From Candidatus Buchananbacteria bacterium RIFCSPHIGHO2_01_FULL_44_11 (lineage in GTDB: Bacteria; Patescibacteriota; Patescibacteriia; Buchananbacterales; UBA6539), in contig MHIE01000003.1 of the NCBI GenBank assembly GCA_001817345.1, positions 100,985 through 147,380 of the forward strand: a stretch of 46,396 nt of DNA. The letters run 5' to 3'. Below, in pieces: positions 34,774 through 39,343 of this stretch. The notes under the pieces are model-generated. The model had not been told where the DNA came from. It saw only the letters and a list, made by a program, of their open reading frames with translations, and made no database searches. Position 1 is the stretch's first letter; each line of letters starts with the position of its first letter. The position numbers and the translations under genes were made by a program.

Positions 34774-34810
34774 ACTAAGATATATTATAACATAAATACA
34801 CAATAGACCC

Positions 34811-34949
34811 AACTCCAAAACAAACTTTGGAGTATCTTGGAGTATCAGGGTGGGTTTTTATGAGAAGTGTCGGCTCCGCCGACATATTATTCCCATAACG
34901 GCCTTCATCTCCGCGGCAAGCCGCGGAGTATTCGGCCACCCATAATAAA
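34811..34949. ncRNA. Candidate structured element, copy 1
   Basis: Plus-strand reading: hairpin H1 (34812-34819 with 34826-34833), GGGTGG, hairpin H2 GTCGGC-TCC-GCCGAC (34869-34883), a conserved stretch TTATT..CATA..GGCCTTCATC, hairpin H3 (9-bp stem with AA loop, 34909-34928), TATTCGGCCACCC and ATAATAAAA. GGGTGG can also pair with CCACCC (34936-34941). The same order of parts is found at 39180-39343, where stem bases differ but pairing is kept. The coding strand, if any, is unknown. Confidence 0.55.
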
Positions 34950-39119: not shown

Positions 39120-39179
39120 ATTAATATTAATGAATAGTTATTGATTTAATTGTAGCAAAATTTGACTGATGAATCCAAT

Positions 39180-39343
39180 CCCACTCTAAAAGAGTGCGAT
39201 ATCGGGGTGGATTCCTAACGAGATGAATCGGCTCCCCGCCTGCGCCGAGGCTTCGGCGGGCAGGCGCCGATGATTATTACTCATACTGCCCTTCATCCCA
39301 CCGCTAAAGCGGTGGCTATTCTGGCAGCAACGTTATAAAAAAA
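39180..39343. ncRNA. Candidate structured element, copy 2
   Basis: Same parts and order as 34811-34949: H1 (CACTC/GAGTG, 39182-39196), GGGTGG (39205-39210), H2 closed by ATCGGC/GCCGAT (39227-39232 with 39266-39271), TTATT..CATA..GCCCTTCATC, H3 CCACCGCT-AA-AGCGGTGG (39299-39316), CTATTCTGGC and ATAAAA. The H2 closing pair is A-T here and G-C in copy 1, and H3 differs at several pairs while staying paired. A 32-base palindromic repeat is inserted in the H2 loop. Confidence 0.55.
39234..39265. repeat. Dispersed GC-rich palindromic repeat, copy 2
   Basis: 28 of 32 bases match 18732-18763. It sits exactly in the loop of hairpin H2 of the structured element; copy 1 of the element lacks it. Confidence 0.7.

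Follow-up and report, generated by a model that had tools for sequence, protein, structure and literature searches.

The 46,396-nt stretch of DNA analysed here (hereafter the window) carries two copies of a structured element in an otherwise ordinary neighbourhood, in which phosphoglycerate kinase is encoded one gene beyond copy 1 and the glyceraldehyde-3-phosphate dehydrogenase gene adjoins copy 2. Both structured copies, which the initial annotation had recognised, are real, and their covariance-model matches are slightly wider than originally noted. The copies and their parts are as follows.

34802..34947, minus strand: copy 1 (c1), match to covariance model R1, 118.7 bits
34806..34857, minus strand: right-end imperfect hairpin H1 of copy 1, outer stem GACCCA/TGGGTTT
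34868..34884, no strand assigned: central hairpin H2 of copy 1, GTCGGCTCCGCCGAC, with loop region CTCCG (alignment columns 128-132, conserved at 0.97-1.00)
34900..34937, minus strand: left-end imperfect hairpin H3 of copy 1, outer stem GGCC/GGCC
34945..34949, minus strand: flank TTTAT of copy 1 (ATAAA on the plus strand), presumed insertion target and left cleavage site C_L
39168..39337, minus strand: copy 2 (c2), match to covariance model R1, 100.1 bits
39171..39214, minus strand: right-end hairpin H1 of copy 2, outer stem GAATCCA/TGGATTC, inner hairpin 39180-39199
39227..39271, no strand assigned: central hairpin H2 of copy 2, enlarged by a palindromic unit, CCGCCTGCGCCGAGGCTTCGGCGGGCAGGC, at about 39236-39265
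39287..39326, minus strand: left-end hairpin H3 of copy 2, outer stem TGCC/GGCA, inner hairpin CCACCGCTAAAGCGGTGG
39335..39339, minus strand: target flank TTTAT of copy 2, likewise the end of a terminator T-tract

On the minus strand of copy 1 the IS200-like left end lies 5' and the right end 3', and the flanking TTTAT doubles as the last letters of the upstream terminator's T-tract. Within H3 of this copy, a guide-like 5'-GAATAC strand is followed by the inner hairpin TCCGCGGCTTGCCGCGGA and then by 3'-GATGAA, while H1 contains a variable inner hairpin (34813-34832) and a guide-like GATAC (GTATC on the plus strand), which is tandemly duplicated in copy 1. The three hairpins stand in the same order in both copies, with the unpaired motifs that had been named for them. 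Read on the plus strand, the element begins with AATRA-ACCC-GAC, hairpin 1 and GTATC-N-GGG-C-GGGTT; after a spacer comes H2 (GTCGGC-TCC-GCCGAC), and after an AT-rich spacer a short outer stem, TTCATC, hairpin 3, GTATTC, the other strand of the outer stem and CATAATA. The minus-strand layout is 5'-TTTAT/...(GGCC GAATAC hairpin GATGAA GGCC)...(H2)...(AACCC..GATAC hairpin GTC GGGTT)CATT/-3', where slashes outside stems mark the element boundaries.

The two window copies are only weakly alike, with a Smith-Waterman score of 30 compared with 28 for the best of 1000 dinucleotide shuffles. Since this likeness is barely above chance, the claim could not rest on that pair alone, and more copies were sought first. 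The covariance-model search that the initial annotation had proposed yielded, together with BLAST, 15 copies in the organism's own 0.94-Mb draft genome, and the model found further copies in about 30 other genomes. Counting the own genome in each case, the element was present in 7 of 55 relatives, in 19 of 381 genomes of the class and in 19 of 380 genomes of a phylum sample; five of the six other genomes searched from the same family had no copy. A pattern scan matched one Komeilibacteria and one Buchananbacteria MAG, and no match was obtained in the phage and plasmid collections searched or in a pattern scan of the viral contigs of IMG/VR. This sporadic, multi-copy distribution includes near-identical copies in unrelated flanks in three genomes (G004, G080 and G189). 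The copies are 94-99% alike in G080 and G189, compared with 66-91% for the older copies of G349, G360 and G367. Their orientation relative to genes is mixed, both window copies following minus-strand genes and others preceding start codons or a tRNA gene. The young subfamily of G004 (L072-L087) consists of about 10 near-identical copies, each about 180 nt long, in which H1 and H2 are altered; in that of G080 (L128-L131) a palindrome, CCTGCCTGCCGGCAGGCAGG, is inserted beside the right-end guide and GTAGAGACGGGGCATGCCCCGTCTCTAC stands in place of H2. At one locus (L105, G360:C47:1733-2135), two opposite-oriented copies lie about 130 bp apart.

With these copies the structure could be assessed in 77 distinct rows. 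Standard pairs filled 95.1% of the paired cells, compared with 69.8% in shuffles and at most 49% when the structure was slid along the sequence, a shift of a single base already taking it below 49%; the alignment was fitted to the structure and so leans towards it, and the margin is large. Double-sided changes were found in all 31 modelled pairs, and in helices 1 and 2 of H1 at 14 of 14 pairs. The selected hairpin structure proposed earlier is thus upheld, and on the question whether it belongs to RNA or DNA, left open then, the evidence now favours DNA. When folded as single-stranded DNA, the minus strand gave z = -6.0 for copy 1 and z = -7.9 for a young G189 copy. The stem of H3 stays paired, as had been noted, but its AA loop is not fixed, and H1 and H3 also vary in stem sequence. 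In most genomes H1 and H3 change fastest, and H2 and the unpaired flanks change slowest; within G000, identity is 54% in H1, 42% in H3 and 71% in the rest of the element. The unpaired plus strands 3' of the inner hairpins are well conserved (TATC mostly 0.83-0.99, GTATTC 0.81-0.95), and the GGG after hairpin 1 (0.99-1.00) and the CTCCG loop of H2 are among the most conserved letters of all. On the active strand, GTATC and GTATTC read GATAC and GAATAC, so that ATAC is conserved at both hairpin feet. The H1 loop occurs in opposite orientations between otherwise similar copies (L004/L003 versus L005/L020), as does the H3 loop (L098 versus L113), which fits stem-loop inversion in place. The element mostly measures about 110-165 nt (complete copies mostly 110-200 nt) and reaches about 250 nt with inserted palindromic units; no complete copy contains a transposase gene, for which all are too short. 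Imperfect, covarying palindromes (H3 and H1) lie near both termini, and there are no terminal inverted repeats, the ends ...CATAATA and AATRAACCC not being inverted repeats of each other.

We then considered the flanks. TTTAT directly precedes the minus-strand element at 13 of 13 sites in G004, young and old alike, at 7 of 7 in G080 and at 8 of 8 in G189. Overall, ATAAA on the plus strand was found within a 9-nt window at 57 of 79 junctions versus 1.7% of comparable flank windows, and the junctions of older copies in the own genome have kept the exact ATAAA in 6 of 13 cases. The outer flank on the opposite side is varied, so that a conserved flank exists on the left-end side only. One insertion at one locus can be compared with its empty target, which is itself a dispersed repeat: the filled site L121 of G189 reads ...CGCATCAA/ATGAACCC..element..CATTA/TAAAAATGTC, and two further copies of that repeat in G189 that lack the element (L165 and L168) read ...CGCATCAATAAAAATGTC. 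The insertion is clean, with neither duplication nor loss of target sequence, its boundary being ambiguous by 1 nt (TTTA/T or TTTAT/). As a further empty site, the orthologue of L099 in G043 was considered, but its sequence had diverged too far to serve.

As the initial annotation had pointed out, both window copies sit directly behind a terminator T-tract, and this is because the T-tract ends in TTTAT. A general tie to terminators did not hold: a terminator-like hairpin with an A/T run was found at 11 of 76 sites versus 6.8% of control ATAAA sites (odds ratio 2.3, p = 0.02), and with an enrichment this weak we rejected terminator targeting as such. Because terminators end in T-runs, the association is that expected from an insertion preference for TTTAT.

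In the IS200/IS605 'peel and paste' system, subterminal hairpins are each accompanied by a guide just 5' of the hairpin foot, and a conserved target tetra- or pentanucleotide is found at the left end only (PMC6006769, PMC7290912); absence of target duplication is listed for elements of this class (PMC3119063). The PATEs of Haloquadratum possess near-terminal palindromes and ends common to IS605-type transposons, have no terminal inverted repeats, target duplication or room for a gene, and often harbour small palindromic repeats within those palindromes (PMC3119063). Like the PATEs of Haloquadratum and Halanaerobium (PMC3119063, PMC7290912), the present element is too short for a transposase, carries palindromes near both ends, lacks terminal inverted repeats and target duplication, and has a conserved terminal oligonucleotide on one side; its sequence is heterogeneous with common ends, these ends are shared with IS605-type elements, and other small palindromic repeats have inserted into its near-terminal palindromes. 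It differs from them in spanning a bacterial phylum instead of one species, in having a third, central, sequence-conserved hairpin, and in its nested terminal hairpins, in which an outer stem encloses an internal loop and an inner hairpin and whole stems are replaced in the course of evolution. Although no family had seemed to fit, the anatomy and insertion behaviour match those of PATEs, a non-autonomous IS200/IS605 class (PMC3119063, PMC7290912). Judging from sequence, we consider it very likely (probability about 0.83) that both window elements are non-autonomous IS200/IS605-type transposable elements (PATEs) without a gene of their own. As a PATE, the element would be new for Patescibacteria and of a kind already known.

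Palindromic units have entered the element repeatedly. The unit CCGCCTGCGCCGAGGCTTCGGCGGGCAGGC in H2 of copy 2 has further occurrences at many unrelated sites in the genome, a CCGCCTGCGCC..GGGCAGGC unit is present in H2 of copy 2, c9 and c10 and likewise recurs at unrelated places, and in some copies H1 or H3 is filled by other palindromic units. The palindromic unit CCCGCCTGCGCCGAGGCTTCGGCGGGCAGGC (39236-39265 of the window; L012, L013, L016, L018 and others) is dispersed through the genome and present in H2 of several copies, and in L012 it apparently lies inside a coding region; it is similar to the small mobile repeats that invade the palindromes of PATEs.

Because the element bears the marks of IS200/IS605 'peel and paste', Y1_Tnp genes were looked for in the carrier genomes. 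G080 encodes an IS200-type TnpA (P0001, 132 aa; Pfam Y1_Tnp, 4e-41), whose nearest solved structures include the TnpA proteins of IS608 and ISDra2 (PDB, 1e-23 to 1e-26). Upstream of its gene stands TTTATTTTATG-TCGCA-GAATAC-(hairpin)-GATGAA-TGCGA, the part from TCGCA onwards following TTTAT, and the minus strand of H3, GGCC-GAATAC-(hairpin)-GATGAA-GGCC behind TTTAT, is this left-end module, with GGCC/GGCC as the outer stem instead of the TCGCA/TGCGA of the G080 group. This module behind TTTAT precedes the IS200 tnpA in L171, L191, L194, L230 and L231. In the closest relatives of P0001 (G291, G330, G278 and G164), this left end, a common right end or both are present where the contigs show them. 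The G080 contig stops at the tnpA stop codon, and the right-end comparison rests on the insertion sequences of these relatives, which end in ATAC-TGCGG[T/G]CTTTAG[A/C]CCGCAG-..-TTTAT (also given as ATAC-TGCGG..CCGCAG-TAA-TTTAT/). A 23-mer from several of these right ends, ATACTGCGGTCTTTAGACCGCAG, matches exactly the right-end hairpin that the element has in G080 copies and in L091 of the own genome (contig C25); no other fetched locus contains it. The element thus shares with this IS200 group the TTTAT target, the GAATAC-hairpin-GATGAA left end and, identically over 23 nt in some copies, the right-end hairpin, and it differs in that the insertion sequence encodes TnpA and in the right end, TAATTTAT with a TTTAT tip in the insertion sequence versus TTYAT(T) in the element.

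The distribution of candidate mobilisers is uneven and counts against the PATE reading. Among the genomes with young copies, G080 has a matching TnpA, the IS200s of G189 have ends unlike those of the element, and the young G004 family is without an evident mobiliser. No IS200-type TnpA was found in G000, G004, G349, G360, G367, G232, G088 or G328. Loss of TnpA would explain these carriers, which mostly hold older copies, the young G004 family being the exception. In G000 and G004 the only Y1 genes are divergent and RAYT-like, which would favour a REP/BIME-type element with a RAYT (TnpA-REP) as its mobiliser in place of an IS200 TnpA, and the element indeed resembles REP/BIME and REPIN sequences with their RAYTs in being dispersed, intergenic hairpin DNA with a Y1 transposase logic. 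We nevertheless give this explanation very little credence, because in both genomes the RAYTs are bordered by short repeats of their own that differ from the element (on which ground we rejected RAYT as the mobiliser), the element lacks the GTAG-type tag that defines REPs (PMC6006769), no Y1 gene is detectable in G349, G360 or G367, and the element ends match an IS200 element. REPs are moreover about 20-65 nt long, unlike an element with two different ends and a centre. The RAYT-like genes lie at G000:C28 (L027), G000:C7 (L028) and G004:C23 (L092), and the short palindromic repeats around them (for example AAGCTAAAGCTTGATCTCC, ACCCCACTTCAGTGGG and AAAAAGGTTCCTGACACC) are unrelated to the element.

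Two further readings would assign the element a role as RNA. If it were a functional structured RNA, either a cis-regulator or a small RNA whose dispersal is secondary, the strong covariation in all stems, the phylum-wide invariance of the H2 loop and of the TATCNGGG strand, and the copies that abut a start codon (such as L003 and L004) would be accounted for. Covariation is equally expected of the ends of a single-stranded DNA transposon, however, and the sporadic, multi-copy distribution without conserved gene neighbourhood, the mixed orientation relative to neighbouring genes and the clean insertion into a repeat in G189 make a functional RNA highly unlikely; Rfam gave no gathering-level match in the window and nothing relevant at E up to 5 in 13 loci. 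Alternatively, the element might be the remnant of a tnpB-bearing IS605/IS1341 element, its minus-strand transcript still providing an omegaRNA scaffold and the right flank the guide for a TnpB acting in trans. The TTTAT would then double as the TAM, the conserved interior would be explained, and the right end, GGGTTCAT(T), is unlike that of the parent IS200, TAATTTAT. This right end resembles tnpB-type right ends. We regard the omegaRNA reading as scarcely plausible, since no IS605-orfB, HEARO or omegaRNA-type match was found in Rfam, a crude pattern scan found the TnpB zinc ribbon in no fetched locus (about 1.5-kb flanks), and the young G080 copies spread though another hairpin replaces H2. 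An ATGA/GTGA-like left flank had also led us to consider HEARO/IscB, which we rejected for want of a HEARO match and because position 4 covaries with a partner inside the element and so is not simply flank. An attC site of an integron was rejected as well, the attC consensus being absent and the copies dispersed singly.

For the preferred reading, a PATE, the mechanism would be as follows. A transposase borrowed from an IS200-type insertion sequence probably moves the element as single-stranded DNA. When the minus strand becomes single, as on the lagging-strand template of a replication fork, both terminal imperfect hairpins could form and would be bound by the HUH Y1 transposase (TnpA), supplied in trans. 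The short sequence ending in ATAC just 5' of each hairpin foot is predicted to guide cleavage; the left end would be cut behind TTTAT and the right end at TTYAT(T). Once excised, the strand would go in behind another TTTAT without duplicating the target, and the preference for terminators would be a by-product of the T-rich target.

The central hairpin fits this mechanism poorly. H2 is better conserved than expected of a passive transposon interior, and its conserved loop, unnecessary for the known end chemistry of IS200, counts against the PATE reading. On the other hand, the young G080 copies spread with H2 replaced, showing that H2 is not needed for movement there. It is conceivable, though unlikely, that H2, whose CTCC loop is near-invariant, and the unpaired, invariant GGG beside H1 form a third, sequence-specific module with a second function, either as an RNA scaffold or as a new recognition determinant. 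If such a module were real, the element would be a hybrid of a single-stranded DNA transposon and a conserved structured RNA that has spread through Patescibacteria.

The PATE reading explains a dispersed structured repeat of Patescibacteria, one that might otherwise pass for a family of non-coding RNAs. The parent IS200, the hairpins it shares with the element, the young and old copies and the empty sites together provide a clean natural series in which the action of TnpA on non-autonomous partners can be tested in tiny genomes. Because the stems of the terminal hairpins often change faster than the rest and yet stay paired, the rewriting of hairpins may be another process that this family can illustrate.
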